Below are positions 7,102-47,751 of a DNA stretch of 64,000 nt, piece after piece; position 1 is the first letter of the stretch; each line of letters starts with the position of its first letter. The notes under the pieces are model-generated. The model did not search any database. It had not been told where the DNA came from and worked only from the letters and a program-made list of their open reading frames with translations. The position numbers were made by a program, and so were the translations under genes. The stretch lies in contig NC_012876.2 in assembly GCF_000003195.3 (NCBI RefSeq), forward strand, positions 64,226,407 to 64,290,406, written 5' to 3'. Origin of the DNA: Sorghum bicolor (Eukaryota > Streptophyta > Magnoliopsida > Poales > Poaceae).

Positions 7102-8436
7102 CGGGCTGGTTCGGGGAGGGGACGGGGGGAAATAAGGACTGGCGTTTCCTCCCTCGTCGGTGGCGGCGGCGGCGGCGGTGCGGCGCCTGCGCCTCCACGC
7201 CCTTTTGAATGAAAATTGAAACGGGTAGGGGGGGATGCGGGATCCCTCGCTGGGGAGGGAGGCGCGTTTGGGTTTCGTGGGGTGGTGGGCGGGGCGGGGC
7301 GGGGCACCGGGCGCCTTCACGCTCGGCTTGGTGGTTTTGTGGTTTCCGCCGCTGGGCTTGCGGCTTCCGGTCCGGGTGGAGGTGGGGATGGGGATAGACG
7401 AAACGAGGGGCGCTTTTACGATCCAGCACCTCGGATCTTTTATGGCTTCAGGATTGGATGCCCTTGCTGTACCTGTTGGAAAATTGGGTTTGATATAATC
7501 TCTCATCCCTCTGTCCATCGTACAGAATCGCAAAGACTCCAATGTGCATCTATATTCACTGGTTTAGAATAACCTAAGAGTAGACTTGAGTATAACTTTA
7601 AATCATTAAGGCTCTAACTGTATCCACTAGTTTAGAATAACTCACTAAGAGTGAACTTGAGTATAGCGTAAGAGTGAACCTGCGTATAAACTCAAATGAC
7701 AATTCAATGAGTCTCTAGTGTGTATCCACTAATTTAGTTTTACGTAGTGGGTTTGTGTCTTGTCAATGGTAGAGTTTAACTCATGATTAAATTCATAAGG
7801 CGTCTAAGAAATATTTATGTCGCATCGAGGGTTAGACATCGGCAAGTAGAGATAGATATATGATTTTGGAGGGGAGTATGCAATCGAGAAAGGAGGGATA
7901 TCGTATGGTTAGGTAGATATGTAGAGACGATAGGGAAGGCGGGACGATGCATGGCTTCTAAGCCATATAGAAACGGCTCCATGCACAAAGTAACGCCAAC
8001 GATGCTCATACTTGCACTAAGAAGAAAAAAAACCAGAAACAGTCCCATGCACAAAGTAACGCCAACGATGCTCATACTTGCACGAACAGAAAAAAAAATA
8101 TTCAGGGGCGGTCATGTTACGTTGTAAGGTTACATATGATTGGAACAAAAAAACTAAATAGATTTTATTAAAGGATGGTTATAATTTAGTAGAATATTAA
8201 CAACTAAATTGTAGACAACAAAATGGTAAAAAAAAAACGACCGCTAGCACATAATTATTGATGTTAACATCGTTGGCCATCATCAACGCTACTACAATGG
8301 TATTATATTAAAAAAAAATGTAACATAATGTGGCATTAAAGCTTAACATATCAAGTAATTAAAAACAGTACGTAATACAATATGTTAATAAAACTTAATG
8401 TATGAACTTGCATCCCGTGGTTAGAAAAGGTAGTAA
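7102..8436. other. Upstream region of the SWIB gene
   Basis: The first ~300 bp are GC-rich, probably 5' UTR and core promoter of the minus-strand SWIB gene. Beyond ~7500 the DNA is AT-rich with loosely repeated words (e.g. ACTAGTTTAGAATAAC near 7558 and 7625). No gene is seen. Confidence 0.4.
7979..8083. repeat. Direct repeat, two 39 bp copies
   Basis: The words CCATGCACAAAGTAACGCC and AACGATGCTCATACTTGCAC run on as one 39 bp unit, found at 7979-8017 and again at 8045-8083 with no difference noticed. The copies are 66 bp apart start to start and separated by A-rich DNA. They lie ~0.9 kb upstream of the SWIB start codon. Confidence 0.85.
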
Positions 8437-8655
8437 GGCCTTGTTTAGTTTCGAAAAGTAAAAAGTTTTCGGTACTGTAGCACTTTCGTTTGTTTGTGAC
8501 AAATATTATTCAATCATAAACTAACTAGGATCAAAAGATTCATCTCGTAATTTACAGCTAAACTGTGTAATTAGTTTTTGTTTTCGTCTATATTTAATGT
8601 TTTATATATGTGACATAAGATTCGATGTGACGGGGAATTTTGAACTGAACAGGCC
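8437..8655 (+). mobile_element. MITE, GGCCTTGTTTAG family, TSD TAA
   Basis: It begins GGCCTTGTTTAGTTTCG, ends in an inverted version (CTGAACAGGCC), and is flanked by TAA at 8434-8436 and 8656-8658. The internal words TACTGTAGCACTTTCGTTTG and GATTCGATGTGACGG recur in the other copies in this window. The 3 bp TSD fits PIF/Harbinger. The last 17 bp are duplicated just outside the end. Confidence 0.8.
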
Positions 8656-10458: not shown

Positions 10459-10695
10459 AGACTTGGTTAGTTCCAAAAGTTTTTGCAAAATCGTCACCGT
10501 AGCACTTTCGTTTGTATTTGACAAATATTATTTAATCATAGACTAACTACACCTAAAAGATTCATCTCGTAAATTATAGGTAAACTGTGTAATTTATTAT
10601 TTTTTAATCTATATTTAATGTTCCATGCATGCGACATTCGATGTGACGAAGAATCTGAAAAATTTTGTAATTTTTTTTCGAAACTAAACAAGACC
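10459..10695 (+). mobile_element. MITE, same family, TSD TCA
   Basis: The ends are AGACTTGGTTAGTTCC and CTAAACAAGACC, slightly diverged from the GGCCTTG consensus. Flanks are TCA at 10456-10458 and 10696-10698. The internal block with GTAGCACTTTCGTTTG and ATTCATCTCGTAAATTA matches the other copies. Confidence 0.8.
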
Positions 10696-10968: not shown

Positions 10969-11724
10969 CTATGTTTTCAGAGTAGTAGGATCCAAGTTTT
11001 GTTTGTTTGTTTTTGGCCCCAAAACTCGTTCCTTTGTTGTTGGCTTCCAACCACGCCTAGGATGATGGGCTGACCCACATTTTCTTTTGCAAAAACTCAC
11101 CGTTGTCCGGGCCGGATTGGCAGCCCAAACTGCTGCTCCGCCCGTCTTGGCCCAAGTTCATGCTTGAGCCCGCCTTGTTCGCGATCGCGATCGATCACTG
11201 GTGGAAGAGACCTGCTCTGCTCCGATCAACGAAACATCCAAGTCTCGCTCTTGCTGAAGAACATTGAGCTGTGTTCAGCGCGTAGCAATAACTAATATAA
11301 CTATACTGTGTAACTTGTTTGGAAATTTTTTGACAGAAGATACATGACCAACATGAATGCTTTTAGCAGTAATATATGTTGCATCCATGCTAGTTGTATC
11401 TCATATTTTTATCATGAATACATTTATGAAAATGTTTGGGATTTTTTTAGTTTTTCAAGGTATTTTCTTAATTTTATAGAGTTAAGTCTATTTTTTAAAA
11501 GCTTCGAGAAATTTTTTTGCGAGTTCTAAACATTTTTATTTGGATACATCACATCCCAATTCATATCTAGGATTTTTATCGAAGTTTTTAGAAGCCTAGC
11601 GACATTTTTTGTGGTTTACAAACCTCATCAAATATTTTTCCGATTATTTTTAACTAAAAAGACAACCACTTCAAACCAAGGTAAAGAGGTAATTTGACGG
11701 ATTGAGAGTTCAAGGGTAAAATGT
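10969..11724. other. Intergenic DNA left of the retrotransposon
   Basis: No gene is recognised. The sequence is AT-rich and ends with AATGT (11720-11724), the target site copied on the far side of the element at 25572-25576. Confidence 0.5.
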
Positions 11725-14700
11725 TGTAACACTCTCGTGTTAAGCGAACTAAAAATGGGACATGTCATCATGAGCATTGCATCAAAAATATGTTAAGCAC
11801 ACATTAATGCATTAACCTAAAATAAGTTTATTTTGGATGAATGTGTTTAGGAATTTGAGTGTGTTTATTTTATGTATGGATGCTTGTTTGGAGTTTAAAA
11901 CGTTGGGTGAGAGTTTTTCCGAGAGCTTAAGGGGGGAAACCCTAGTTTCCAAAACCCTAGATTTGCCCCCTTTTGTGCAATTCAAAAACCAAGCAGAATT
12001 TGAAGTTGAGTTTAAAAGCAAAGTTGTAGATCTGGTCAAGATGTACAACTTTGGTGTTTTGAGTTTTTGAAGTTTCAGTACAAAATTCAAAGTAATTTTG
12101 AAAATACAGATTTCCGGAAAGTGTCCCCTTTTCAAACTTAAATCTCCAATTCAAAATCTGTTTGGAATTTTGAAAAATGGTCAACATGAGAGTTGTAGGG
12201 CTTGAAAAGTTGAACAACTTTCATGTTGGGAGTTTTTCAAGTTGTTTTACAAAATCAAAAGTAATTTTGGAAATTCTGTTTTGCCCCAATTCAAAAATTT
12301 GGAATTGAGCTTGAATTTCAAAACTGTTTGGCAAATTTAGCTAATTTTCACTCAGAATTAGTTCTGGCCACCAAAAGATGTTTTGTAGCTCACAAATTTT
12401 TGTACAACTTTTATTTTGGCATATTTTCATCTTCTATTCAAAATCCCAGAGTAATTTTATGTTTTCAGAAAGGGTATTTTGGGGAAAAGGGGGATAAGCT
12501 CGACCCTGTTCATGGCGGTGTGCCGCCGAGCGTCGATCGGCGTTTGCCGACTCGTGAACCGCCGTTTCACCCCGTCATAGCGCGTGTCCGCATCCGTGGC
12601 AAAGTGGAGCAGCTGCTGGCGAAGTGGAGCGCGACGTGCCCTTCTCTACTGCGCTCACCGACGTCGATTGCCACCGGAGCACCGACGGACAGCTCTCCAC
12701 TCCAATCCAAAATTCACCGCCACGGTTGATCCATATCCAAATTCACCGCGGGCATATCTTCATCACTTCCTTGCGCATCTCCAGAACCCACCCTTCTTTC
12801 CTCGTTCGCACCAGATCACCGGAGCTCTTCGTTTTCCTCTCCGCCGGCGACAGAGCGCCACCGTGGTCAAGCTCGTCGTGGTCAGCCCATCTGGGCAACT
12901 TCCTGCTCTCTCTTTCTCTCGTCTTTGCTTCGCCATGACCTTGTGATGCTCATCGGCTCGCTCTTTTCTTCTTTGCTTCACAGCTGCCGCCGGAACATCG
13001 TCTTCTTCGTCGGAGCTCGCCGCCGGAGTCTCTGGTCGCGTGGACAAGCAACACCCGACTGTTCTCCGCTCCTTCTCTCTGCGTCAGCACACCCAGGGTG
13101 AGACGCTGATGCTTCCTGACCTCTCCATTCTTTCTCTACTAGCCTAGAGCCACCGGCGTAAGCACCGCCGCGGCCATGTCCGCCGCCGCTCGTGGCCAGA
13201 CCTCGCTAGAGCAGTAGAGTACGGGTTTGCTAGCTTGTTCGGTTGCGGGTTGCTTGCTGGTGCTTGTGCGCGTCTCAGTTTGGCTCGGGGTGACCGGAGT
13301 TGGCCGGCGTAAACCCTGCCACCGCGTTCTGCCGCGCTCTGGACGGCCGGAGCGTCGGGGACCTTGCTGTTGTAAAGATGAGAAAGGGGAAGGGTTCGTT
13401 TGCAAAGCCGTAGACTCATGTGAATAGTAGCCTGGTCTGCGGGTTGGTTGCTAAGAAAGCCGAGGGCTTTTCTGCAAATCTACCAGCGCGCGCGGGGGAG
13501 GGCCGGCTGGGCCAAGTTTCACGCGGGCTTGGGCCGAGCTCCTGGCCGCAGAAGCACAGTGTTGCTTTTCTTTTTCTTTTTGTTTACAAATGAGTGATGT
13601 TTGAATTTATGCTATGATTTATCTGCTGATCCAAAATTTATGAAAATTTTTGTATGGCTTCCTTAAAATGAGTAGAACACATGAAAAATGTTAGACTTTA
13701 TTTTCTGGTAGTTTGCATGTATGTAAAAATTTGCCTTTGTTTATTAATGAATAAACCTTCCATGATTTTTAGTAAGTTATGGGTATATCCAAAAATCATG
13801 AAATTTAATATGTGAGCTTGTGTTAATGTTATTTAGCTTCATGATTAATTTCAGCTCTGTTTGATTAAGTATGCTCCATTTCTTAATAAAGCTATTTAAA
13901 ATGCTTATAAAAGAAATAGAAATAATTAATCCCTTTAGGTTTTGGGTGATATTTTGGATTGTTTGATAACCATGGTTACTTAGCAATGATATGCTCCCTG
14001 GTTATGGTTTATTACATGTAACTAATCCTTGTGATATGTTGAGTCCATAACCTTGTTTAATAAAAATAATAAAATGGATTTAGCAATAAACCATGTTTTG
14101 ATAGCTAGATTACTTTGTTTCTTTACCATGAAGGAAAATTGTACTCAAGGTAGTCATATTTATTGTTGTCATCCAAGAACATGTAACCTGTCTTTATCAT
14201 GCCATGAGTATATCATAATCATGCATATGCACTTTTACGTATAGAATACGCTCCGGAAGAATCTGATCCTCAGTGGATTTCTTCCGAGTTTGTGGATCCT
14301 TCGGGTGTTGTTGAATTGCCGAACGTCTCCTCCGACCAAGGCAAGCCCCGGACATTAAACCCTATCCTTGTATTTTCATAAAGTTATTTATATCACTTGA
14401 GTTAATATGATGCATTAGGTGAATAGGAGTTGAGTGAATCCTATTTGCTGCATTATCTACTTTGATGATTTCCATATTAACCTTGATTCTTGCTTTATGA
14501 AAATACGTAGTATGCTTAGCCCTGCTTATTAGATAAGTTTTCAAATGAAAAAGTTTGAAGGGTTGTTGTGGCATACTTTTACGGTTAAAGATGTTTAACT
14601 TGAGACCGGTCGGTGGACTTGCTTTAAGAATGGAGTCTTAAAGTAGTGTCTCCAACTGTGTCGATTAAGGACCGTACCGTTGTTGGCCTGTTGTGATTGA

Positions 14701-15749
14701 GACCTTTGAGTACAGCCCACATGCGCTGGTAAGCCTTACCTATAGCTATTCCGATACTTGAGAACGGCTAACCGCGTACTGGGAGTGGAGAGATGGCGAG
14801 AGTAGCGTGTACCCACCTTACGGATCTGAGATGACCGGGAAACATCTAGATTGGCTGTAGGATGGTGGTGTACTGTACTCTCGGGTGACGCTGGACCCGT
14901 TCTTGTATGGGAGGATCTATAGAAAAGGTTGACATATGCAAGATTAAGTTCTACATATGTCGTGTGGTACTGAATCCCCAGCTGGGTTTAATCGATTCGA
15001 ATCGCCGTGTTTCCTCGGATATGGAGCCTCAATCCTCGTACCATCATCGTAGTAATAAGTGAATCTTTGGTATAAGAAAGAGATGAGTTGTTTATGCAAG
15101 TTGGATAATGATCTTGGCTAGTTATAAGTGATAATCTTGAGTTAAAACTTGAAAGTAGGCTTTAATCTTAGTAAGCTTTTATGCAAAAGAAATGCTTGAT
15201 CTTGTTAAAGCTTTACCTTGAATCCCCATAGCCTGCATACTTGAGTCTTCACCTCTTTTATAGTCGGTTAAGTCTTGTTGAGTACTTTTGTACTCAGGGT
15301 TTTATTAACCCATGTTGCAGGTGAACCTCTTGATTATCCTTTTGATGGTCATGGTTACTTTACTCTTGTGGAGGAAAGTGACGATGAGGTTTCTGATGTG
15401 TGACCTTGGGCAAGTAAAAGTTGTTGTGTGAATCTATGGTTTATGTAATAATAAAGTTCCGAAGCTTTTATGTATTAAATACTTATGGTTTGTAAACCTT
15501 GAACTTGAGTTTCAATCTATGTTATGTAACCTTTCCGCTTTTACTCTGATTTCTCTTATCTATAAAATGTTATAATACTGTGATACTTGATGAGGGAATT
15601 CCTGAAAAGATTGTTACGTGGATGATTCGGGTTTCCCGAGGACACCCGACAGACTTCTTGAGTCATTTGGAACTCGTGCACGTCGATCAGAAGTCTTTGG
15701 GACAATGATGTGTGCATGTGGGCCACTTAATTCAGGAGGTTCTGCCACA
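11725..15749 (+). repeat. 5' LTR of the Tekay-type element
   Basis: It begins TGTAACACTCTCGTG and ends GGTTCTGCCACA. An AT-rich left part (11725-12490) is followed by a GC-rich, stop-poor section (12490-13560), then AT-rich DNA. AATAATAAAG near 15448-15457 could serve as polyadenylation signal. The promoter position is not clear. Two exon-like segments lie at 14245-14340 and 15321-15403. Confidence 0.95.
14245..15403 (+). CDS. Possible spliced ORF inside the LTR (two last exons)
   Basis: Segment 14245-14340 is preceded by an acceptor-like TTTTACGTATAG and ends DPQWISSEFVDPSGVVELP... up to CCAAG|GCAAGC, a GC-type donor. Segment 15321-15403 follows CATGTTGCAG. Joined in phase it continues GEPLDYPFDGHGYF and ends EESDDEVSDV then TGA. 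The two segments give about 59 codons with an acidic C-terminus. The upstream start is unresolved: an exon-like open stretch near 12983-13097 ends at a GTGAGA donor and is phase-compatible, but I found no ATG for it. The same structure is repeated in the 3' LTR at 24067-25225. It could also be leader sequence. No family is recognised. Confidence 0.35.
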
Positions 15750-15751
15750 GC

Positions 15752-15763
15752 TGGTATCAGAGC
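15752..15763 (+). other. Primer binding site, initiator-Met tRNA
   Basis: TGGTATCAGAGC starts two bases after the 5' LTR. It is the standard complement of the 3' end of plant tRNA-iMet, used by most Ty3/gypsy elements to prime minus-strand synthesis. Confidence 0.95.
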
Positions 15764-16240
15764 AGGTTTCCCTTAGAAAGTATAGCAGTATTCGATTTTG
15801 AAAACTTCAAAAGCTTTTGAGTCAAACTAAATTCCAAATTAGTTTGAGTCCAAATTGCTTCTAAGCTTGTCTTATGCTTCTAACTTGTCTCAATTCATTC
15901 TTTAGACTTATCCTTCTATCCAACTGGATATGTTCTTAGTATAATTATGGTGATATTTATATACAAGGAACGATGCTTATGATATTATAATATTGCCCTA
16001 TTTATGAAAAGAACGTTTATGCACTTTTATATTAAGTGACTAATTTAAAGTTAATTATTTGTTTGATGTATGCTTTGTTCGTAAGTACGATTCATGCATC
16101 ATTAATGATAACATGTAATTAACTTTCCTCCTTAAAGTTGTTAATAATTAGAGGTAATATGTCCATCTAATTGTAAAACTCTATCCTTTAACCTTGGAAC
16201 ATATATAGTTCTAATATTCAAAATAAAACTATTTTGGCAG

Positions 16241-16708
16241 ATGGCACGTACCCGCCTAACCGCTCGCAAGTCCACCGGAGGTCGTGTTCCCAGGCACCAG
16301 TTGGCATCAAGGGATCCGCCACCCTCCGATAGCAGCGACAGCAGCACTGACAACTCCAGCGACGGGAACGGGAGTGACACCAGCGGAGGTCCTCCTTCGC
16401 CAAGGACCTACAGGCTTATGAAGAATGATCTGCGCCTGATGCTCACTGACAACATCAACATGGAAGTTCAGCTGTACCATATGGCAGGGTATGTGGTCAC
16501 TCTTGAGGCTTATGCCAACACCCTCCATGAGGAAGTGCACCAGCTGCAGGATGCCCTCAATCCACCCGAGGCTCCTGAAGCAGCAGAGGAAGGACCAGTT
16601 GTCATCCAAGTGGATAGTGATACTTCTGAGGATGAAGCAGAGGAGCCAGGAACTCCCACTCCAGATGAGGGTGTTACCACCAGTGACTCGGAGATGGATG
16701 ACGACTAG
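16241..16708 (+). CDS. Extra ORF before gag: histone H3 tail-like N-terminus, acidic C-terminus
   Basis: A 155-residue protein. Without the Met, residues 1-23 align with the histone H3 tail without gaps and are identical at 16 of 23 positions, including TARKSTGG and PR-QLA. K9-S10 in ARKS is kept, but K4, K14 and K23 are Arg and K18 is His. Residues ~27-50 are rich in Ser and Asp. Residues ~58-108 look helical and amphipathic (RLMKNDLRLMLTDN, LEAYANTLHEEVHQLQDAL), possibly a coiled coil. The end is strongly acidic (SDTSEDEAEEP, SEMDDD). There is no histone fold. An extra ORF upstream of gag is, as I recall, known in rice Tekay-type elements as orf0; I do not know whether the H3 resemblance has been reported. 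The start codon has a good context (GCAGATGGC) and sits directly after an acceptor-like TTTTGGCAG. Function is unknown; chromatin-reader or chaperone binding is an inference. Confidence 0.85.
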   Translation: MARTRLTARKSTGGRVPRHQLASRDPPPSDSSDSSTDNSSDGNGSDTSGGPPSPRTYRLMKNDLRLMLTDNINMEVQLYHMAGYVVTLEAYANTLHEEVHQLQDALNPPEAPEAAEEGPVVIQVDSDTSEDEAEEPGTPTPDEGVTTSDSEMDDD

Positions 16709-16933
16709 GTGTTGAGGAGGCAAGAAGTATGACCGAGTGTGATCTTCTGACTTTGTAACTTAGTTAGTCAGAAAACCCCTAGTATGGGAAGTTGTGTAAG
16801 ATAGTGGTTTCAAGTAGTCCTGCCCGGGAGCGGACTTGTATGATAAATAAGATGAACTGTTTGTGCTATGTAAGCCATGATGTATGATGGTTAAGTGTGT
16901 ATGTTAATTAAAGTGTGATGTGTTTTTAAACAG

Positions 16934-19900
16934 ATGTCTGCTAACAACCATGGAGCTAGTTCTTCCCAGGGTGGGGATGATTTTCCTAATGCACCACCAG
17001 TTCCACCCTCTTTGGCTGATGCAATTGCAGCATTGGTCAATGCAACAACTGTGTTAGCACAAAATCAGAATGCTGGTCAGCGTGGCCGTGGTCGCCATAA
17101 CAGAGAAGAAACCACATATGTTGACTTCACAGATACTCGTCCCCCAGTATTCACGAAAGCTGATGAACCTCTTGAAGCTAAGGATTGGCTTCGCACTATG
17201 GAGCAAAAGTTCAGTCTCATCAACTGTACTGAAACTCAGAAGCCAGCTTTTGCCGCTCAGCAGTTAAGAGGAGCAGCAGGAGTTTGGTGGGAAAACTTAT
17301 TGGCTGTTCAACCAGCCCGCCACCGAATCACTTGGGGGGAATTCAAGGAAGCCTTTAGGGCTCATTACATTCCCAAGGGAGTTATGAAAATGAAGCTCGA
17401 AGAGTTCTTAGCTCTCCGTCAGGGGGATGACTCAGTTATACAGTATATTGGAAAGTTTAATCATCTGTCCCAATATGCAATTGAGCAAGTCAACACTGAT
17501 GAAAAGAAGAAGGATTGTTTCATGAGAGGCTTGAATACAAAGCTTCAGCTGATGATGGCATCGTGTGGCAATATATCTTATCATGAGGCAGTGAACATTG
17601 CTATCTCCAGTGAAGAAAAGAACCGCAAACATAAGGAGGCTAAGAAGAAGAAGGGGTTTGTCTCAGGGTCTGGATCATCTGGCGGCAACAAGAAGCGTCA
17701 GAGGCTTGTATATCATCCAGCTCAGCAGTTCCGCCCATCTTATCGCCCTCCTTATCAGCCACCTCAGCAGCAGAATATGCAGAGGAATTTTGCAAGGCCG
17801 ACAATGCCATTCAATGTTCAACGTCAGCCAAATGTTCCTGCCATTCGTCCGCCAATGCCACAAGCTGCAAACAACCCTTGTTACAATTGTGGGAAGAGTG
17901 GACATTTTTCTCGTGAATGTCCATATCCAAGGCAAAATATTCCAAATGCCAATGCACCAAGACTAGTTGGAAATCAGCAAGCAAATTCCAACAAGGGTAA
18001 TGCCCAGAATCAGCAGAAGGGTAAGGGTACTCAGAAAACAGGAAGGGTTTTCCATACTCAAGTTGAAGCTATACCTGAGGGAGAACCAGTGATGCTTGGT
18101 ATGTTCCCTGTTGCCCAACACCCAGCACTTACACTTTTTGATTCTGGAGCATCACATACTTTCATGAATAGAGCATTTGCGGAAAAGCATAATATACCTA
18201 TTGGTGCAACCAAAGATGAGTTCTTTATACAGTCACCTGGGGGTCGACTATGCACTAAGGAAATGGTACGTCAGGTGCCAATAGACTTGGGTGGATATAT
18301 ATTTCCAACATCCATGATAGTGTTAAAAGATCCAAGTATAGATGTGATCTTGGGTATGAACTGGATGAGTCAGAGAGGTGCAGTTATAGACACCCTAAAT
18401 AGAACCATCAAGGTCAACTTACCTAATAGCAAATCTCAACTTCTTATCCATCTTCCTACCCTTAAGAGAGCAGTTGAGCAAGTGTGTGCTATCTCTGTTA
18501 AGGAAATCAAGGATATTCCAGTGGTCTGTGAGTTTCCTGATGTGTTTCCAGAAGATTTACCTGGTTTGCCACCGGATCGTGATGTGGAGTTTGAAATAGA
18601 GCTCAAGCCAGGGACAGCACCAATATCTAGAAGAGCCTATAGAATGCCACCAAAAGAGTTAGCAGAATTGAAAACTCAGTTGCAAGAATTGATGGATAAA
18701 GGTTTTATTCGACCTAGTTCATCACCATGGGGTTGTCCGGCAATCTTTGTGAAGAAAAAGGACCATACCTTGAGGCTATGTGTAGACTATCGTCCTTTAA
18801 ATGAAGTAACAATCAAGAATAAGTATCCTTTGCCCCGTATTGATCTTCTCTTTGATCAACTAACTGGTGCTAAGGTATTTTCAAAGATAGACTTGAGATC
18901 GGGGTATCATCAAATTAAGATCAAGCCAAAAGATGTTCCGAAAACAGCATTCACTACCAGATATGGTTTGTATGAATATCTGGTCATGTCTTTCGGTCTG
19001 ACAAATGCCCCAGCACATTTTATGTATCTGATGAATTCAGTGTTTATGCCAGAGTTAGATAAGTTCGTGGTGGTATTCATTGATGACATTCTCATCTATT
19101 CCAAAACTAAAGAAGAGCATGAAGAGCATCTCAGGATAGTGCTGACTCGCCTGAGAGAACATCAGTTATATGCTAAGTTTAGCAAGTGTGAATTTTGGAT
19201 AGATGAAGTCCAATTTTTGGGTCATGTTTTGTCAGCTGAAGGTGTTGCAGTAGATCCAAGCAAAGTTCAAGAAGTTCTTGACTGGAAGTCACCAACTTCA
19301 GTACATCAAGTTCGGAGTTTCTTAGGATTAGCAGGGTATTATCGCAGGTTTATCCCTGACTTCTCCAAGATCTCTAAACCAATGACAACACTGCTAAAGA
19401 ATGATACCAAGTTTGTGTGGTCATCCGAGTGTGAAGAAGCTTTTCGGACCTTGAAAAAGTTATTGACCACTGCACCAGTGCTAGCTCAACCTGATATTGA
19501 AAAATCTTTTGATGTGTATTGTGATGCTTCAGGCAAAGGCATTGGGTGCGTACTAATGCAAGAAGGAAGAGTCATTGCATATGCTTCACGACAACTTAAG
19601 CGTCATGAAGAGCATTATCCAACCCATGATTTAGAGTTGGCAGCTGTAGTCCATGCTCTGAAGATCTGGCGACATTATCTATTGGGCAATACTTGTCACA
19701 TATATACTGATCATAAGAGTTTGAAATACATCTTTACTCAGTCAGAGTTGAATATGCGTCAGAGGAGATGGTTAGAACTGATAAAAGATTATGATATTGA
19801 GGTACACTATCACCCAGGCAAGGCCAATGTAGTGGCAGATGCACTCAGTCGAAAGAGTCATTGCAATTGTCTGGAAGTCAAGCCTATAGACCTTACCTTG

Positions 19901-21418
19901 TGTTATGAATTTGAAAAGTTAGGTCTTGAGATGATTCCACAAGGGAGTTTGACAAATATGACAGTTCAATCATCTATCAAAGATCAGATTATTACAGCCC
20001 AGCAAGAAAATAAGGGTATAATCTTTTTGAAAAGAAAGGTTCAGTCTGAACCAAATTCCAGGTTCAGGATAGATGAAGCTGGAGTAGTTTGGTTCAAGGA
20101 TCGTTTAGTGGTTCCAAAAGTTCCTGAACTTAGAAAACAAATTCTTGATGAAGCTCATGCAACAAGACTTTCAATCCATCCAGGCAGTAATAAGATGTAT
20201 CATGATTTGAAACAAAGATTCTGGTGGACTAAGATGAAACTTGAAATTGCTAGTTATGTGGCTAGATGTGATACTTGCCAAAAAGTAAAAGCAGTTCATC
20301 TTAGGTCTGCTGGAGAATTGCAACCGTTGCCAATTCCATCTTGGAAATGGGAGGACATTAGTATGGACTTCATAGTGGGTTTACCCAGAACCTCGAGAGG
20401 GTTTGATTCCATATGGGTCATTGTTGATCGTCTGACCAAATCAGCTCATTTCATTCCAGTAAGAAAAGATTATCGAGCTTCTGACTATGCTAAGATATAC
20501 TTTAACAGAATTGTGAGTCTACATGGTGTTCCAAAGACTATTGTATCTGATAGAGGGACACAATTTGTGAATGCTTTCTGGAAGCATCTGCATAAGTCCT
20601 TGGGTACTAAACTTCTGCATAGTACAGCTTATCATCCACAGACTGGAGGTCAGACTGAAAGAGTCAATCAGATCTTAGAAGATATGTTAAGATCTTGTGT
20701 GCTCAGTTATTCAGAGAAGTGGCACGAATGTTTGCCTTTAGCAGAGTTCTCTTATAATAATAGTTATCAAGAGAGCATTAAGATGGCACCATTCGAAGCT
20801 CTGTATGGTAGAAGGTGTAGGACACCTTTGAATTGGTCAGAACCTGGAGAACATAGTCTCTTCGGGGTTGACTTAGTCAAAGAAACCGAAGAAAAAGTCA
20901 GGCTCATTCGAGAAAACATGAAGGTAGCACAGTCCAGGCAAAAGAGTTATGCTGATAAGAGACGTCGATCTCTTAGCTTTGAGGTTGGTGATTATGTATA
21001 CCTCAGAGTGTCACCTATAAAAGGAGTCACTCGTTTTGGAGTAAAAGGAAAGTTGGCACCTCGATATATAGGTCCATATCAAATCCTTGAAAGATGTGGA
21101 AAGGTGGCATATCGTCTAGATTTACCACCACAGTTGTTATCAGTTCACAATGTGTTCCATGTCTCTCAGTTAAAGAAATGTCTTAGAGTGCCTGATCATA
21201 TCATTCATGTTGAAAAAATTGAGTTAAAGCCTGATCTGACATATTCAGAGTATCCTATCAAGATTCTGGATCAAAAAGATCGAGTCACTCGCAGAAGAAC
21301 TATCAAATATTACAAGGTGCAATGGAATCAACATACCGAAGATGAAGCCACATGGGAATCCGAAGAGTTTCTCTTAGGAAGTTTTCCTGAGTTTCTTTCT
21401 TCTGTCTTATCCTTGTAA
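16934..21418 (+). CDS. Gag-Pol polyprotein with C-terminal chromodomain
   Basis: A single 1494-residue frame without internal stops. Gag capsid region ~80-220 (WWENLL, FRAHYIP); CCHC zinc knuckle 316-329 ([14 protein letters not shown]); aspartic protease with DSGAS at 403; reverse transcriptase ~590-770 with catalytic FIDD (D717, D718); RNase H ~855-975 ([15 protein letters not shown]); integrase with an HHCC finger from ~1075 and a D1144, D1205, E1241-type triad with 35-residue D-E spacing; GPY/F-type motif ([12 protein letters not shown]); chromodomain ~1437-1485 ([14 protein letters not shown]). Together these package the RNA, copy it and integrate it; chromodomains of this class are known to steer insertion to heterochromatin. 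One residue is unusual: [11 protein letters not shown] has Gly where QTDGQ is common. The ATG directly follows TTTTTAAACAG. Encoded proteins appear functional. Confidence 0.97.
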
Positions 21419-21532
21419 TCTGTAGTGTAATGATCTACCCCTGTTTTTGTAAAGGTTGGTTTTGGAAATGCTTGACAAATTTCCTTTTCCATTAGTTAGC
21501 CTTTAAGGTAAATCTCGGGACGAGATTTCTTT

Positions 21533-21546
21533 AAGGGGGAAAGAGC
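21533..21546 (+). other. Polypurine tract
   Basis: AAGGGGGAAAGAGC directly precedes the 3' LTR and would prime plus-strand synthesis. Confidence 0.9.
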
Positions 21547-24500
21547 TGTAACACTCTCGTGTTAAGCGAACTAAAAATGGGACATGTCATCATGAGCATT
21601 GCATCAAAAATATGTTAAGCACACATTAATGCATTAACCTAAAATAAGTTTATTTTGGATGAATGTGTTTAGGAATTTGAGTGTGTTTATTTTATGTATG
21701 GATGCTTGTTTGGAGTTTAAAACGTTGGGTGAGAGTTTTTCCGAGAGCTTAAGGGGGGAAACCCTAGTTTCCAAAACCCTAGATTTGCCCCCTTTTGTGC
21801 AATTCAAAAACCAAGCAGAATTTGAAGTTGAGTTTAAAAGCAAAGTTGTAGATCTGGTCAAGATGTACAACTTTGGTGTTTTGAGTTTTTGAAGTTTCAG
21901 TACAAAATTCAAAGTAATTTTGAAAATACAGATTTCCGGAAAGTGTCCCCTTTTCAAACTTAAATCTCCAATTCAAAATCTGTTTGGAATTTTGAAAAAT
22001 GGTCAACATGAGAGTTGTAGGGCTTGAAAAGTTGAACAACTTTCATGTTGGGAGTTTTTCAAGTTGTTTTACAAAATCAAAAGTAATTTTGGAAATTCTG
22101 TTTTGCCCCAATTCAAAAATTTGGAATTGAGCTTGAATTTCAAAACTGTTTGGCAAATTTAGCTAATTTTCACTCAGAATTAGTTCTGGCCACCAAAAGA
22201 TGTTTTGTAGCTCACAAATTTTTGTACAACTTTTATTTTGGCATATTTTCATCTTCTATTCAAAATCCCAGAGTAATTTTATGTTTTCAGAAAGGGTATT
22301 TTGGGGAAAAGGGGGATAAGCTCGACCCTGTTCATGGCGGTGTGCCGCCGAGCGTCGATCGGCGTTTGCCGACTCGTGAACCGCCGTTTCACCCCGTCAT
22401 AGCGCGTGTCCGCATCCGTGGCAAAGTGGAGCAGCTGCTGGCGAAGTGGAGCGCGACGTGCCCTTCTCTACTGCGCTCACCGACGTCGATTGCCACCGGA
22501 GCACCGACGGACAGCTCTCCACTCCAATCCAAAATTCACCGCCACGGTTGATCCATATCCAAATTCACCGCGGGCATATCTTCATCACTTCCTTGCGCAT
22601 CTCCAGAACCCACCCTTCTTTCCTCGTTCGCACCAGATCACCGGAGCTCTTCGTTTTCCTCTCCGCCGGCGACAGAGCGCCACCGTGGTCAAGCTCGTCG
22701 TGGTCAGCCCATCTGGGCAACTTCCTGCTCTCTCTTTCTCTCGTCTTTGCTTCGCCATGACCTTGTGATGCTCATCGGCTCGCTCTTTTCTTCTTTGCTT
22801 CACAGCTGCCGCCGGAACATCGTCTTCTTCGTCGGAGCTCGCCGCCGGAGTCTCTGGTCGCGTGGACAAGCAACACCCGACTGTTCTCCGCTCCTTCTCT
22901 CTGCGTCAGCACACCCAGGGTGAGACGCCGATGCTTCCTGACCTCTCCATTCTTTCTCTACTAGCCTAGAGCCACCGGCGTAAGCACCGCCGCGGCCATG
23001 TCCGCCGCCGCTCGTGGCCAGACCTCGCTAGAGCAGTAGAGTACGGGTTTGCTAGCTTGTTCGGTTGCGGGTTGCTTGCTGGTGCTTGTGCGCGTCTCAG
23101 TTTGGCTCGGGGTGACCGGAGTTGGCCGGCGTAAACCCTGCCACCGCGTTCTGCCGCGCTCTGGACGGCCGGAGCGTCGGGGACCTTGCTGTTGTAAAGA
23201 TGAGAAAGGGGAAGGGTTCGTTTGCAAAGCCGTAGACTCATGTGAATAGTAGCCTGGTCTGCGGGTTGGTTGCTAAGAAAGCCGAGGGCTTTTCTGCAAA
23301 TCTACCAGCGCGCGCGGGGGAGGGCCGGCTGGGCCAAGTTTCACGCGGGCTTGGGCCGAGCTCCTGGCCGCAGAAGCACAGTGTTGCTTTTCTTTTTCTT
23401 TTTGTTTACAAATGAGTGATGTTTGAATTTATGCTATGATTTATCTGCTGATCCAAAATTTATGAAAATTTTTGTATGGCTTCCTTAAAATGAGTAGAAC
23501 ACATGAAAAATGTTAGACTTTATTTTCTGGTAGTTTGCATGTATGTAAAAATTTGCCTTTGTTTATTAATGAATAAACCTTCCATGATTTTTAGTAAGTT
23601 ATGGGTATATCCAAAAATCATGAAATTTAATATGTGAGCTTGTGTTAATGTTATTTAGCTTCATGATTAATTTCAGCTCTGTTTGATTAAGTATGCTCCA
23701 TTTCTTAATAAAGCTATTTAAAATGCTTATAAAAGAAATAGAAATAATTAATCCCTTTAGGTTTTGGGTGATATTTTGGATTGTTTGATAACCATGGTTA
23801 CTTAGCAATGATATGCTCCCTGGTTATGGTTTATTACATGTAACTAATCCTTGTGATATGTTGAGTCCATAACCTTGTTTAATAAAAATAATAAAATGGA
23901 TTTAGCAATAAACCATGTTTTGATAGCTAGATTACTTTGTTTCTTTACCATGAAGGAAAATTGTACTCAAGGTAGTCATATTTATTGTTGTCATCCAAGA
24001 ACATGTAACCTGTCTTTATCATGCCATGAGTATATCATAATCATGCATATGCACTTTTACGTATAGAATACGCTCCGGAAGAATCTGATCCTCAGTGGAT
24101 TTCTTCCGAGTTTGTGGATCCTTCGGGTGTTGTTGAATTGCCGAACGTCTCCTCCGACCAAGGCAAGCCCCGGACATTAAACCCTATCCTTGTATTTTCA
24201 TAAAGTTATTTATATCACTTGAGTTAATATGATGCATTAGGTGAATAGGAGTTGAGTGAATCCTATTTGCTGCATTATCTACTTTGATGATTTCCATATT
24301 AACCTTGATTCTTGCTTTATGAAAATACGTAGTATGCTTAGCCCTGCTTATTAGATAAGTTTTCAAATGAAAAAGTTTGAAGGGTTGTTGTGGCATACTT
24401 TTACGGTTAAAGATGTTTAACTTGAGACCGGTCGGTGGACTTGCTTTAAGAATGGAGTCTTAAAGTAGTGTCTCCAACTGTGTCGATTAAGGACCGTACC

Positions 24501-25571
24501 GTTGTTGGCCTGTTGTGATTGAGACCTTTGAGTACAGCCCACATGCGCTGGTAAGCCTTACCTATAGCTATTCCGATACTTGAGAACGGCTAACCGCGTA
24601 CTGGGAGTGGAGAGATGGCGAGAGTAGCGTGTACCCACCTTACGGATCTGAGATGACCGGGAAACATCTAGATTGGCTGTAGGATGGTGGTGTACTGTAC
24701 TCTCGGGTGACGCTGGACCCGTTCTTGTATGGGAGGATCTATAGAAAAGGTTGACATATGCAAGATTAAGTTCTACATATGTCGTGTGGTACTGAATCCC
24801 CAGCTGGGTTTAATCGATTCGAATCGCCGTGTTTCCTCGGATATGGAGCCTCAATCCTCGTACCATCATCGTAGTAATAAGTGAATCTTTGGTATAAGAA
24901 AGAGATGAGTTGTTTATGCAAGTTGGATAATGATCTTGGCTAGTTATAAGTGATAATCTTGAGTTAAAACTTGAAAGTAGGCTTTAATCTTAGTAAGCTT
25001 TTATGCAAAAGAAATGCTTGATCTTGTTAAAGCTTTACCTTGAATCCCCATAGCCTGCATACTTGAGTCTTCACCTCTTTTATAGTCGGTTAAGTCTTGT
25101 TGAGTACTTTTGTACTCAGGGTTTTATTAACCCATGTTGCAGGTGAACCTCTTGATTATCCTTTTGATGGTCATGGTTACTTTACTCTTGTGGAGGAAAG
25201 TGACGATGAGGTTTCTGATGTGTGACCTTGGGCAAGTAAAAGTTGTTGTGTGAATCTATGGTTTATGTAATAATAAAGTTCCGAAGCTTTTATGTATTAA
25301 ATACTTATGGTTTGTAAACCTTGAACTTGAGTTTCAATCTATGTTATGTAACCTTTCCGCTTTTACTCTGATTTCTCTTATCTATAAAATGTTGTAATAC
25401 TGTGATACTTGATGAGGGAATTCCTGAAAAGATTGTTACGTGGATGATTCGGGTTTCCCGAGGACACCCGACAGACTTCTTGAGTCATTTGGAACTCGTG
25501 CACGTCGATCAGAAGTCTTTGGGACAATGATGTGTGCATGTGGGCCACTTAATTCAGGAGGTTCTGCCACA
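21547..25571 (+). repeat. 3' LTR of the Tekay-type element
   Basis: Same length (4025 bp) as the 5' LTR. I noticed two substitutions between them: CGCCG here for CGCTG near 22928, and TTGTA here for TTATA near 25392. AATGT follows at 25572-25576. Confidence 0.95.
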
Positions 25572-25994
25572 AATGTTTTGGAAGAAGGAAATCAGATTAT
25601 GGCGATGGTTAGGAACATAAAAGTAAAATTGACTTTTTCTTTGAGACAAACCATAAAAGCTCAAGTAATTATGGATTGTAGTAGGCTATAGCATTCTACG
25701 GCAGGGAAGCACCTGATGCTGATTTGTTGTGGCTGATAAGCTCGGCAAATTAATGTGTATATTGAGCCAAGATATTTGTAAGATGGAAAGTGATGAGTGA
25801 CTTGTGACTCGTGGTGTACAAACTCTGAAACATCACGGTCTCTTGGTCGTGGTCGCAAAGAAAGAGGAGCACTCAAGTGTATGCAGCGTGTAGCAAATCA
25901 AAAGTATATTTGGCTTGGTTGGAGGCTTGGAGCTGAGGCAGACAAGGGGCAGCATGGGATGCTTCCAACCACGTTCTCTTCATCACTCGATCCA

Positions 25995-27170: not shown

Positions 27171-27242
27171 GGTCTCTCCCTTGAGTTTTCTCCACTAGCA
27201 TTTAATGATCTTCTTCTTTTATGAAGTTAATTACCATTATAA

Positions 27243-27484
27243 GGCCTTGTTTAGTTCACCCAAAAACAAAAAACTTTTCAAGATTTACTGTCACATCGAA
27301 TCTTGCGGCCCATGCACGGAGCATTAAATATAAATGGAAACAGAAATTAATTGCACAGTTTGTCTATAAATCACGAGACGAATCTTTTAAGCCTAGTTAC
27401 TCTATGATTGGATAATGTTTGTCAAATAAAAACGAAAATGCTACAGTGTCAAAATCCAAAAACTTTTCGAATCTAAACAAGGCC
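27243..27484 (-). mobile_element. MITE, GGCCTTGTTTAG family, TSD TAA
   Basis: Ends GGCCTTGTTTAGTTCACC and CTAAACAAGGCC are flanked by TAA at 27240-27242 and 27485-27487. The interior is in opposite orientation to most other copies (AATGCTACAGTGTC near the right end). Confidence 0.85.
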
Positions 27485-27731
27485 TAAGTTTAGCTCAACA
27501 TGCAAGTCATCTACATCATCTTTCACTAACTATTCACGGCATCATTCACTAAACAGCCATAAGTCATGTTATTCCACTAACTTCTAACATATTAACTGCA
27601 AGCTTTCATATCATCTATACTTTAATTTTATTCTAAATTCTTGGCAATGGCCGCAGAGGGGACGCAGAAGAAGAAAGGAGGGGAAAAAAAACGTGCTGGA
27701 TTTCCACGGACACCCGAGAGCCAAGCGGAAG

Positions 27732-31825: not shown

Positions 31826-33277
31826 GGGTCGCGAGCGGGGTCATACGATTGGCCACTCTACCGTGCCTGGAAGGCGCGTTTGGCCCGACGGTTTTTGCTG
31901 ATGGGTTAGATTGGGCCGGTGGGTTTTGACGCAGGTCAGATGCGCGTTTCGGCGACGCGAAGATTTCAGTTCTTTGGGCCATGCAGGTGTGGCCGTTGTT
32001 TCATCGTGGCACCGTTGGACCTGTGGAGAAAACGTGTGCCAGGTCGGTGGCGGTTGTCGGTTGGGCAGTCCGACAACGAAGACTAGACTTTCAACAGGTG
32101 AGGTGAGCGCGTGCCAGCCGACTAGCAAACACGGGTGGATCCCGGAACAGAATTTCTAGCGCCTCTCAAGTCTCAAACTTGTAGCTCAGTCATGTCTTTT
32201 AACAAAGAAAACAATACGGTTTTAAGCAAAAGGAATCTACACTGAAGTTTAGTAGCACGCATAATAACCAATTCTACACAAAAAAACAATCCTAGCATCA
32301 TTTGTCATCCAAAAGGAGCAAATTGCTGTCGAATTGGAAGAATGTGTTTCTTAGTGTCCACGTATATTTGCAACCGTGTTTAATGTCGTAGCAAGTTGTT
32401 CTACTTGTGTTGATGTGGTTTTGTGCTTCGGGAGGACATGAAGTTCCGTTACTTTTGATAATACACTAGTACCAAAAGGCCAATTATTATTGGTTTTAAG
32501 AGCCTGTCAGTGCCAAACTTTGGCGCCAACAGTGCGTAGTCGATAGTGATATATATATGGTGAGGGGTTACCATTATTGATGCTACAACTGATAGTAATC
32601 TCCTACACAGTGGCGAATCTAGGATTTTACCCAAGGGTATGTTGTCCAAAAAAATTTTATGTATAATTTAGTAAATATATTTTAGCCATTCGATAACAAT
32701 GGTAGAATTTGCAACGTGATTTGGTATAAACGCACTAATATTACATGATAAGGCTTAAATTCAAGAATGAAGGTAAAATCATTCACTAAATACAATAAAA
32801 GGACTTCAAAAAGCTATACCGATAGTTCAAATAAATGCATAAAAGAGTTTTAAAGAATTATAGGCATAAAAGAGTAACAGTATAATGTTATTTTTCTAAA
32901 CACTTTCAAAGGAATATGAATATCTTGATTATATTATCTTTATCAACTTTAAAAATCCCAGTTAATAAAAATGACTAGTAGACAACTATTCAAAAGGCTA
33001 TCCCCATCTTATTTCTACGCAAAGATGAAGATGAGAAGAGACCGAAGAGTAAAGGTTGAATTTTACCTAAACGAAGTAGCAAATCAAGATGATAAGCCTC
33101 CGTGCCTGTCTTGATTGGTGCGGCCGTGTCGAACGCGTAGACCGCAAACGTATGAAATAATGAATCAAGATGGACAGACGGCGAGCCTCAGATCTGGCAT
33201 CCAGAGCAGAGTAGAGGCGGCAGGATCACCATCACCGCATCACGCCACCACGGCGTCAGGCGGCATGCGTTGACTCA
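31826..33277. other. Upstream region of the EF-hand gene and AT-rich intergenic DNA
   Basis: No gene is recognised. The palindrome TTGGCGCCAA lies near 32520, and the word CAGTGGCGAATCTAGGATTT near 32608 looks like a dispersed-repeat end. The rest is AT-rich. Confidence 0.4.
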
Positions 33278-33520
33278 GGCCTTGTTTAGTTCCGAAAAGT
33301 GAAAAGTTTTCAGTACTGTAGCATTTTCGTTTGTTTGTGACAAATATTATCCAATTATGGACTATCTAGGATTAAAAGATTCGTCTCGTGATTTACAGCT
33401 AACCTGTATAATTAGTTTTTGTTTTCGTCTATATTTAATGTTTCATGTATGTGCCACAAGATTCGATGTGACGGAAAATCTTGAAAACTTTTTGGTTTTC
33501 AAGGTGAACTAAACAAGGCC
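33278..33520 (+). mobile_element. MITE, GGCCTTGTTTAG family, TSD TCA
   Basis: Ends GGCCTTGTTTAGTTCC and GAACTAAACAAGGCC are flanked by TCA (33275-33277, 33521-33523). The family interior is present. Confidence 0.88.
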
Positions 33521-33660
33521 TCAGAAAAAGCCGAAAAGGAAAGTACGAAACGTTGGTGCCTAGGTGTACGTATTGCCCTATTCTTTCTTACCTACAGAAT
33601 CCGGCGGATTCGACCACTAGAAGCAGCATCCACGTCACCTCAATTAATTTCCTCCATTGG

Positions 33661-33903
33661 GGCCGTGTTTAGTTCCCGAACCAAAAAATTTCGCGACACT
33701 GTAGCACTTTCGTTTGTTTGTGGTAATTATTGTCCAACTATAGACTAACTAGGCTCAAAAGATTCGTCTCGTAAATTTCGACCAAACTGTGTAATTAATT
33801 TTTATTTTCATCTATATTTAATATTCCATACATGCGTCTAAAGATTCGATGTGATGGAGAATCTTGAAAAATTTTGGGTTTTTATGTGGAAGTAAACAAG
33901 GCC
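33661..33903 (+). mobile_element. MITE, same family, TSD TGG
   Basis: Ends GGCCGTGTTTAGTTCCC and GTAAACAAGGCC are flanked by TGG (33658-33660, 33904-33906). It lies only 140 bp from the previous copy. Confidence 0.85.
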
Positions 33904-34127
33904 TGGATGTTTGATCGTCGGGTCGTCGTTGCTTGGAGCGGCTTCTTTCCGGAGCAGCTTCCCGCGCTTCTTGTGAACTTCTCTGCTCTGTTTTTGTTTG
34001 GCTTTCTTCGGCTTCTCACGAATCCACACAGATAAATATATACTCCAGCTTCTGCTTTTACCTCTCTTCTCCATCCGGATGCTTCCCGACCCCGACGCCT
34101 CTCTTCCCACGGGCATCGCCTCCACCA

Positions 34128-34820
34128 GGTATATATAACTTTTTACCATTATTAAGTTTAGCATCTCTCCAAATACCAACTTAAAATGGTAAATACATTT
34201 TTACCATCAGAACCACGAATTCGATACAAATATACCATATTTGCCTTGGTGGCAGTCCACATCACCTGGCCAACATGGAGACTGAAGGGGAAAAGACCTC
34301 CCTGCCCCTGGCGCCTTGCTCTCCCTTTCTCTCAGCTCAGGACACACATAATCAGCACTGCACTATATTTTTTTATATTTTCAGCAAACACAAGATCAGA
34401 TAAATGATCACACATAATGAATAAATTAACACATATAAATAATCACATATTATATTCACCACTGCAGTGCTGATTGTGCGATCATTTATCTGATAATATT
34501 CACATATAATATTCAGCAAACACAAGATCCGATATATGTGCGATCATTTATCTGAACTTGTGTTTGCTGAAAATATGAAAAAAAAAACACACTGCAGTGC
34601 TGCGTCCTAAGCTGAGAGAAAAGGAAAGCAAAGCGCTAGGGGTAGGAATGTCTTTTCCCCTTCACTTTCCACGCTGGCCAGCTGATGTGGACTGCCACCA
34701 AAGCAAATATGGTATATTTGTATCGAATTCGTAGTTCTGGTGGTAAAAATGTATTTACCATTTTAAAGTTGGTATTTGGAGAGGTGCCATACTTAATAAT
34801 GGTAAAAAGTTATATATCCC
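34128..34820. mobile_element. MULE-type foldback MITE with 9 bp TSD
   Basis: Two inverted arms of about 280 bp (34128-34410 and 34538-34820) surround a ~130 bp AT-rich centre. The outer ends read GGTATATATAACTTTTTACC and, inverted, GGGATATATAACTTTTTACC. CCTCCACCA occurs exactly at 34119-34127 and 34821-34829. A perfect 9 bp duplication with long terminal inverted repeats is the hallmark of Mutator-like elements. No transposase frame is present. Confidence 0.88.
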
Positions 34821-35314: not shown

Positions 35315-35774
35315 AATTTTTTTATTTTTAGTCCAAATTTGAAACAAATTTTGAATTTAACCCGCTTTAGAAAGTATTTTCAGAAATAGGCCGTTTGGCC
35401 CCGCCACCATACATGGCGGGACAAATTTACAGTACCCCGCCATGGCGGCGGGGTAGGGCAGCCACGTGGCACCCGGCTGGCGGGGCTGGCTTACGTGGAC
35501 CCCGCCACCGGACATGGCGGGTTAGGACAACCCCGCCGCGCATCATGGCGAGGTGCCCGAGAAAAGGACCCGCCCTTTCTGTCGAACCCCCAGCCCCCGC
35601 CCTTCCTGTCTAATTTCAAATAAATTTATTAAAAATTTAAATTTAAATATCTATTTAATGATATTAATTTTATATTATACATATTAATATTTTAAATATA
35701 TATGTAATGAAAGTTATTTTTCGAGAAGTAAAAATAATAGATTTAGAAACAGAAACACAGCACAGATGATATGA

Positions 35775-36111
35775 GGCCCTGTTTAGTTCCCTACCCAAAA
35801 TTTTTTCATCCATCCCATCAAATCTTTAGACACATGTATAGAACATTAAATGTAGATAAAAAAATAAACTAATTACACAGTTTAGTTAAGAATCGCGAGA
35901 CGAATCTTTTAAACCTAATTACTCCATAATTAGCCTTAAGTGCTACAGTAACCCACATATGCTAATGACAGATTAATTATGCTTAATAAATTTGTCTTGC
36001 AGTTTCCTGACGAGCTATGTAATTTGTTTTTTTATTAGTTTCTAAAAACCCCTCCCGACATCCTTCCGACATATCCGATGTGACACCCACGTTCCCAATC
36101 TAAACAGGCCC
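35775..36111. mobile_element. MITE nested in the long-TIR element
   Basis: The ends GGCCCTGTTTAGTTCCC and CTAAACAGGCC(CC) are inverted. The interior has ATTACACAGTTTAGTTAAG and GCGAGACGAATCTTTTAA in common with the GGCCTTG family, but it is longer (~337 bp). TSD is not clear. Confidence 0.65.
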
Positions 36112-36664: not shown

Positions 36665-36901
36665 AGAAGTCTTTCCAAAATATTTTAGGAAATCGATATT
36701 TTAGCATTTTTGTTTATAATTGACAAATATTGTCTAATCATAGACTAACTAGGTTTAAAAGATTCGTCTCGTCAATTCCAACCAAACTGCGCAATTAGTT
36801 TTTATTTTCGTCTATATTTAATACTTCATGCATATGTTTAAAGATTTGATATGATAAAAATCTAAAAAATTTTGTAAAATCTTTTAGGAATAAAACAAGC
36901 C
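36665..36901 (+). mobile_element. Diverged MITE, GGCCTTGTTTAG family, TSD TGA
   Basis: The interior (GACTAACTAGG, AAAGATTCGTCTCGTCAATT, CGTCTATATTTAATACTTC) is clear and the ends are diverged (AGAAGTCTTTCC, AAAACAAGCC). TGA lies on both sides (36662-36664, 36902-36904). Confidence 0.65.
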
Positions 36902-36975
36902 TGACATCGCTTGCTGAGTATGTGCCTGGGCGTTGCGTGCTGCAGGTGGGTCAGTATAGGCTGCTGGTCTACAGC

Positions 36976-37198
36976 CTTAAACCTAAATTTTTTCAAAATT
37001 TTTTATCACATCCAATATTTGAACATATATATGAAATATTAAATATATATAAAAATAAAAACTAATTGCTCAGTTTATCTGTAATTTGTAAGACAAATCT
37101 TTTAAGCCTAATTAGTTTATAATTAAATAATATTTATCACATACAAACGAAAAGTGGTACAGTAACTGTTTCTCAAAAATTTTTGGAACTAAATAAGA
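36976..37198 (-). mobile_element. Diverged MITE, same family, minus orientation
   Basis: AACTAATTGCTCAGTTTATC, AAGCCTAATTAGTTTATAAT and GGTACAGTAACTG match the family interior in reverse. The ends are eroded; no TSD is seen. Confidence 0.5.
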
Positions 37199-39710: not shown

Positions 39711-39943
39711 GGCCTTGTTTACTTCCAAAAAGTTTTGCAAAATAGGAATAGTAGCAATTTCGTTTGTATTTGACAAATATTATTTAATTATAGACTAACT
39801 AGGCTCAAAAGATTCGTCTCGTCAATTCCGACCAAACTGTACAATTAGTTTTAATTTTCATCTATATTTAACACTCCATGCATACGTCTAAAGATTCGAT
39901 GTGACGGAGAATCTGCAAAATTTTTCAGGAACTAAACAAGCCC
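39711..39943 (+). mobile_element. MITE, GGCCTTGTTTAG family, TSD TAG
   Basis: Ends GGCCTTGTTTACTTCC and GAACTAAACAAGCCC are flanked by TAG (39708-39710, 39944-39946). The full family interior is present. Confidence 0.85.
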
Positions 39944-47468: not shown

Positions 47469-47751
47469 TGTTAGAAATCGTTCACTGGGTGCTCACGAAT
47501 TTTACTTGTGGACACAGACAAAGAGATGAGGAGAATGAGAGGCTTTTGTATTTCACTCTTTCTTTTTCACTTCCTGGTTTTGATTGTTTTACAAGGGTGA
47601 AAGTGACCCCCTATTTATAGAGGGATGTAGTGAATGAATACAAACTCTCTACAGGATTTGAACCCTTTGAAATTCATCTCCCTCCTTCATTAATTTGGCC
47701 ACATTCAAAGTCTCATTTTCATACACTGTTTGAAGACTTTGATTCACAACA
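47469..47751 (-). repeat. 3' LTR of the copia element
   Basis: TGTTAGAAATCG...GATTCACAACA on the plus strand, 283 bp. Contains CCCTATTTATAGAG. Confidence 0.93.

Follow-up and report, generated by a model that had tools for sequence, protein, structure and literature searches.

Why should a grass retrotransposon encode the tail of a histone? In Sorghum bicolor, the segment 16241-16315 on the forward strand of the 64,000-nucleotide stretch of DNA analysed here (the window) encodes MARTRLTARKSTGGRVPRHQLASRD, the start of a 155-residue ORF0, and an initial annotation made from the sequence had read it as a retrotransposon protein with a histone H3 tail mimic that keeps only K9. As that annotation had noted, an extra ORF at this place is known in related elements: ORF0 (5' additional ORF) is described for Retrosat2, RIRE3, RIRE8, FRetro3, Sorsat2 and ZMsat2 (PMC3485330) as well as for maize Tekay and sorghum Sb7 (PMC11728184), and ORF0 and its position are also covered by PMC7264820. 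Hydrolase, acyltransferase and transporter functions have been assigned to it (PMC3485330), and a DRBM-like fold, nuclear localisation and a modulation of RNA silencing have been proposed (PMC11728184). The word "histone" does not occur in the main texts of these three papers.

The element harboring ORF0 is a Tekay-type chromovirus

Positions 11725-25571 hold a Tekay-type chromovirus of the Ty3/gypsy group that is both young and intact (Table 1). Its LTRs are 99.85% identical over a 4036-bp self-match (11714-15749 / 21536-25571) and its primer binding site is presumably of the initiator tRNA-Met type. The claimed membership among retrotransposons is borne out by the Pfam domains of a Ty3/gypsy gag-pol with a C-terminal chromodomain (RVT_1, integrase and Chromo PF00385, the last at 26.8 bits with a cut-off of 25.1) and by the motifs RVTRRR and DEATWESE (the latter with D for the first E) at the pol C-terminus, which place it in the Tekay/Del type, whose chromodomain motifs are (K/R)X(L/T)RX(k/r) and EEXTWEXE (PMC3350952). 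As in Tekay/Del elements of grasses, a 5' ORF, here ORF0, lies upstream of gag-pol; by their published descriptions, the ORF0s of the elements named above occupy the same site in long-LTR chromoviruses of grasses. The gag ATG also directly follows an acceptor-like CAG (16931-16933), as does the ATG of ORF0, and with a CAG before both start codons, alternative splicing might supply separate mRNAs for ORF0 and gag.

Table 1. Features of the chromovirus and of its ORF0 (window coordinates).
Feature	Position	Strand	Basis
5' target site duplication AATGT	11720..11724	.	sequence read; 5 bases recur at 25572-25576
5' LTR	11725..15749	+	ends fixed by target site duplication and TG...CA
primer binding site TGGTATCAGAGC	15752..15763	+	sequence read
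acceptor-like CAG abutting ORF0 ATG	16238..16240	+	sequence; putative splice role
H3-tail module, ATG + H3 1-23 match (24 codons, 72 nt)	16241..16312	+	H3 comparison, conservation
ORF0, 155 aa, short form	16241..16708	+	ORF; between 5' LTR and gag
ORF0 second conserved motif YANTLHEEVHQLQDALNP	16511..16564	+	LHEEVH invariant, 9-sequence alignment
gag-pol, 1494 aa: gag, zinc knuckle, protease, RT, RNase H, integrase, chromodomain	16934..21418	+	Pfam
integrase C-terminal chromodomain, residues 1444-1488	21263..21397	+	PF00385
polypurine tract	21533..21545	+	sequence read
3' LTR	21547..25571	+	LTR self-match, target site duplication
3' target site duplication AATGT	25572..25576	.	sequence read

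The chromodomain of the window element has His where Clr4 and MPP8 carry the third aromatic residue of the cage, and chromodomains of seed-plant Tekay elements are described as having no cage and a partner that was not identified (PMC6317226). Because Tekay chromodomains have no full cage and position three is His here, the element's own chromodomain is judged unlikely as a reader of the tail.

Elsewhere in the window, copies of a dispersed repeat (about 200 bp, 73-90% alike) occupy no fewer than 7 places in both orientations (8436-8644, 10462-10666, 27242-27489, 33277-33904, 35774-35931, 36673-37197, 39711-39951), with inverted self-matches at 34128-34820 and 36673-37188, which by its sequence looks like a MITE or TIR element. 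A direct repeat of 283 bp, 98.6% identical, is located at 47469-47751 and 55721-56003.

The N-terminus of ORF0 matches residues 1-23 of histone H3

After the initiator Met, 16 of 23 residues of ORF0 equal H3 1-23 with no gap, the departures being K4R, Q5L, K14R, A15V, K18H, T22S and K23R. The likeness to the H3 tail is real: the best phmmer match of ORF0 among solved structures is an H3 chain (E=5.2e-5), the best runner-up in a six-frame ungapped scan of the window reaches 9/23, and under the composition of ORF0 itself the probability of at least 16 matches is about 5e-16. The reverse strand of 16241-16315 contains two stops. Changes fall preferentially on lysines, as 4 of 5 lysines but 3 of 18 other residues were lost in the window copy (Fisher p=0.017), and the bias is stronger in the relatives L055 (p=0.008) and L034 (p=0.003), the latter having Q5 as the sole change among its 18 non-lysine residues.

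Identity to H3 does not extend past residue 23, and the collapse of ungapped identity after residues 21-23 rules out that the likeness reaches K27. Ser is found at position 28 in 184 of 223 sequences, but inside a Ser-rich stretch, and RHKS in subfamily 2 matches as a counterpart of RKS only with a gap and was not relied on. No histone fold was detected in ORF0 by Pfam.

When the whole genome was queried with H3, the first 33 of the 150 best-scored matches (of 1066 candidates) were H3 or H3-like genes or their pieces. Among the remaining 117, 113 start at H3 residue 1 and lie away from H3 or H3-like genes, 4 are pieces near such genes or do not start at residue 1, and 37 coincide with matches of the ORF0 search. 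In the viral contigs scanned, relatives of the tail were absent.

K9 and a second block are nearly invariant among ORF0 relatives

Relatives were collected by a protein search (37 among 119 candidates), by a further search with the long form as query (41) and by profile scoring (1970 of 7997, with 120 of them listed). ORF0 belongs to a cluster of 27 members at 97% identity, and about 100 near full-length copies are present in the genome among the matches listed. From 183 proteins of at least 100 aa, the tail could be mapped in 153, a sample dominated by few subfamilies; as the mapping was anchored on TARKSTG with up to 3 and PRHQLA with up to 2 substitutions, strongly decayed tails are missed. 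Many of the other 30 are N-truncated gene models or internal-Met starts, among them P0148, which is 98% identical to the tail-bearing L041; some may truly be tail-less. The Miscanthus record P0187 matches ORF0 in its C-terminal part only.

Among the 153 tails, K9 is present in 152, K23 in 3, and K14 and K18 in none, position 18 being His throughout, whereas K4 is kept in 26 and replaced by Arg in 127. The expectation that K9 is invariant across copies while the other lysines are gone thus holds at K9, K14, K18 and nearly at K23 but not at K4, and the phrase "keeps only K9" is right for the window element but not for the family, in which 117 tails also have a new lysine at position 5. Flanking K9, T6 (150), A7 (113), R8 (141), S10 (151), T11 (140) and G12 (136) are conserved, and so is the PRHQLA block with P16 (152), R17 (138), Q19 (138), L20 (151) and A21 (152). 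A1 occurs in 60 tails and Pro takes its place in 80, while position 14 is non-basic in most relatives (IG, FG and similar). Changes of R8 to C or H resemble methyl-CpG decay. In the sorghum subfamily of L031-L050 the tail is mostly MARTRLTARKSTGGR[AV]PRH[QP]LA[ATSP]R, and the older window-subfamily copies L054, L055 and L057-L060 carry Q5, as H3 does. A general avoidance of lysine as the cause of the changes to Arg and His was considered, the window ORF0 having 2 lysines, but it fails for the family because the 347-residue ORF0 of L041 contains many.

The tail is under purifying selection

Comparison of the window with 16 of the 20 copies L051-L070 (L051, L053, L056 and L057 were excluded for a lost start, altered length or stops) gave dN/dS of 0-0.27 for tail codons 2-24 and 0.20-0.59 for the rest of ORF0, the tail being lower in 16/16 copies, values that indicate a direction and are not a precise test because the copies are interrelated and synonymous sites number about 20 per tail. 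When the window was compared with four copies of subfamily 2, tail dS was 1.75-2.3 and dN about 0.1, with a ratio of 0.05-0.07, whereas gag, seen in 17 of 20 loci, shares only 34-46% identity over its best stretch. ORF0 is under purifying selection, which is strongest in the tail. The initial annotation had named an unconserved or neutrally evolving ARKS segment as grounds for giving up its reading; ARKS was found to be conserved and the tail constrained. Copies of ORF0 broken by stops are common, as is expected in a repeat family.

Two subfamilies differ in chromosomal distribution

Counted on the ten large contigs only, the best 60 of 95 window-subfamily matches have a median distance of 12.1 Mb from the nearest chromosome end, with 38/60 within 15 Mb, and the 41 tail-only matches (L031-L050 subfamily) one of 26.4 Mb, with 2/41 within 15 Mb; 17.2 Mb is expected at random. 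The 35 less similar window-subfamily matches have a median of 19.7 Mb, so age may account for part of the contrast between subfamilies. Among the matches listed, young window-type copies are distal and tail-only matches interior.

The tail probably derives from the first coding exon of an H3.3-type gene

Eight H3.1-type genes of sorghum (L071-L078) encode the full protein in a single uninterrupted frame. In the intact H3.3-type genes L079, L080 and L081 and the decayed L082, the first coding exon ends exactly after K23 in phase 0 and is followed by GT. The first exon of the three intact genes thus consists of Met and H3 1-23 and ends where the identity of ORF0 ends, whereas ORF0 does not continue into a histone fold. 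This coincidence suggests exon capture, and that the N-terminus of ORF0 is the captured first coding exon of a host H3.3-type gene is, from these comparisons, probable rather than proven. The ATG of L081 is directly preceded by the acceptor-like atgcag. In ORF0 the ATG follows ggcag in the window-subfamily copies inspected and gcagcag, tcagcag or tagtag in the four inspected from subfamily 2, an arrangement that the capture of a single exon would produce. Codon agreement between ORF0s and sorghum H3 genes exceeded the null expectation at P<0.05 (uncorrected) in 10 of 24 pairs, at synonymous sites near saturation. The best pair was the window with L081 (11/16, P=0.0002); for L034 and L032 it was the H3.1-type L071, and H3.3 is not singled out. 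Divergent H3-type genes with altered tails also exist in sorghum (L083 and L085; MARTKCTARKSTGG and MARTKSTARNSTGG, the latter with Asn in place of K9), and their first exon ends at a place different from that of the H3.3-type genes.

Long forms of ORF0 are predicted to have a dsRNA-binding-like fold

Beyond the tail, ORF0s run into acidic, coiled-coil or dsRNA-binding-like sequence. Long ORF0s add a coiled coil and, as structural modelling suggests, a dsRNA-binding-like fold, and the best structural matches of the L041 model were DRB7.2 and the second dsRBD of DCL4; this search employed a second model, the first (pLDDT 59) being too weak. No Pfam dsRBD match was detected up to E=5 in the 8 ORF0s scanned, and the short ORF0 of the window does not contain the domain. 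Such a domain in long ORF0s would be in keeping with a function against silencing.

Discussion

At the level of sequence, ORF0 qualifies as a K9-type histone mimic, with a likeness beyond chance that selection has conserved. Known mimics likewise present a short H3-like sequence in a non-histone protein, as in G9a/GLP and ATF7IP, whose H3K9-type site undergoes methylation and is recognised by chromodomain proteins (PMC9768651), and in influenza NS1, described as a viral histone mimic (PMC12937675). In contrast to these, ORF0 is a retrotransposon product whose match covers H3 1-23, sits at the true N-terminus and looks as if descended from an H3 gene. In the open-licence literature searched, no paper was recognised that reports an H3 tail for a plant retrotransposon, and within that literature the H3 tail, its end at the boundary of the H3.3-type first exon and the dsRNA-binding-like fold beside the tail appear to be new, ORF0 and the fold themselves being known.

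What might the tail be kept for? TARKSTG is the core handled by H3K9 methyltransferases and by readers of methylated K9. It may be, although we hold this with some reserve, that a captured H3 first exon is maintained as a K9-type ligand or substrate for silencing factors of the plant, as a bait rather than a tether. Removal of the Met, expected before Ala, would present TARKSTG with lysines 14, 18 and 23 (here also 4) replaced, and as most other lysines are replaced, the tail could be methylated at K9 yet would accept few other marks. It would then engage H3K9 methyltransferases or H3K9me readers, with SUVH4-6, CMT3/ZMET2 and SHH1 as candidates, displayed on a coiled-coil protein that in long forms also has the dsRNA-binding-like fold beside it. 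Such a bait could blunt or misdirect silencing, which is rated likelier than a tether for integration. Plant readers of methylated K9 include CMT3/ZMET2 and SHH1, and SHH1 needs unmethylated K4 (PMC7617993). Arg at position 4 cannot take the lysine mark of K4, and together with the kept K9 core and the replacement of the other lysines this favors a tail that serves the H3K9 arm of silencing as bait or substrate.

Several observations speak against a K9 ligand. A7, which packs in the pockets of HP1-type chromodomains, is changed in 40 of the 153 tails, and A1 is not Ala in 93; some tails keep K4 and most have the new lysine at position 5. The PRHQLA block matches the K9 core in its degree of conservation, so the tail may serve for more than K9. 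Plain titration would be up against a vast excess of nucleosomal H3 and would have to rely on high affinity or, by way of the coiled coil, on acting locally or multivalently.

A wider version of the bait reading, which we regard as possible but tentative, is that the ancestor of these grass chromoviruses combined a captured H3.3 exon 1 and a DRB-like fold on a coiled-coil protein, forming a two-armed counter-silencing factor. Its H3 arm would take or sequester the K9 methyl signal, its dsRNA arm would engage small-RNA production, and short forms would keep the H3 arm only. VANC of the Arabidopsis VANDAL elements is likewise an extra protein encoded by an element and counteracts silencing, in a sequence-specific manner and with loss of DNA methylation (PMC5735166), whereas for ORF0 counter-silencing is a proposal.

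Other roles were weighed against the bait. The tail could act as a chromatin tether if ORF0 methylated at K9 were bound by heterochromatin readers and steered the integration complex, complementing an integrase chromodomain deficient in its cage. The missing cage of seed-plant Tekay chromodomains and the His at the third cage position agree with this, but the tail is nearly the same in two sorghum subfamilies whose distributions are opposite (12.1 versus 26.4 Mb), a contrast confounded by age, and we consider a tether unlikely.

Karyopherins import H3 via its tail, and H3 importins might recognise the ORF0 tail as a nuclear localisation signal of the H3 type, in which a change from Lys to Arg keeps the charge and avoids acetylation. 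Basic residues and PR-QLA are kept, K4, K14 and K23 are Arg in the window copy, and a nuclear localisation was predicted for every Poaceae 5'aORF that PMC11728184 analysed. Nevertheless, with position 14 non-basic in most relatives, K18 changed to His in 153/153 and the near-invariance of K9 and S10 left unexplained by import alone, this role is rather improbable.

Still less probable is that the tail recruits readers specific for an unmodified H3 N-terminus, of the MSI1/RBBP4 type or PHD fingers. Host peptides of FOG1 and BCL11A recruit such readers, and R2 (138/153), T3 (143/153) and a Lys or Arg always at position 4 agree with it, but A1 is mostly replaced, in 80/153 tails by Pro, and the most constant block is K9-S10 with P16-H18-L20-A21, not the first four residues. 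A chance likeness, or a captured H3 fragment that persists as a dead relic, to which the many stop-broken copies and the decay-like changes at R8 might point, is regarded as ruled out by the composition-based P, the six-frame scan, the low dN/dS of the tail and its conservation between subfamilies far beyond that of gag.

The extra ORF of Tekay/Retrosat2-type elements has so far been without an established function, and a conserved tail centred on K9 makes this function concretely testable, by methylation and by binding partner. If the bait reading is true, a transposable element carries a histone tail within the genome that it parasitises, likely by capture of an exon from a histone gene, and its copies would constitute a natural series of lysine-substituted H3 tails. 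The finding bears on what the chromoviruses of seed plants engage since their integrase chromodomain lost the methyl-lysine cage.
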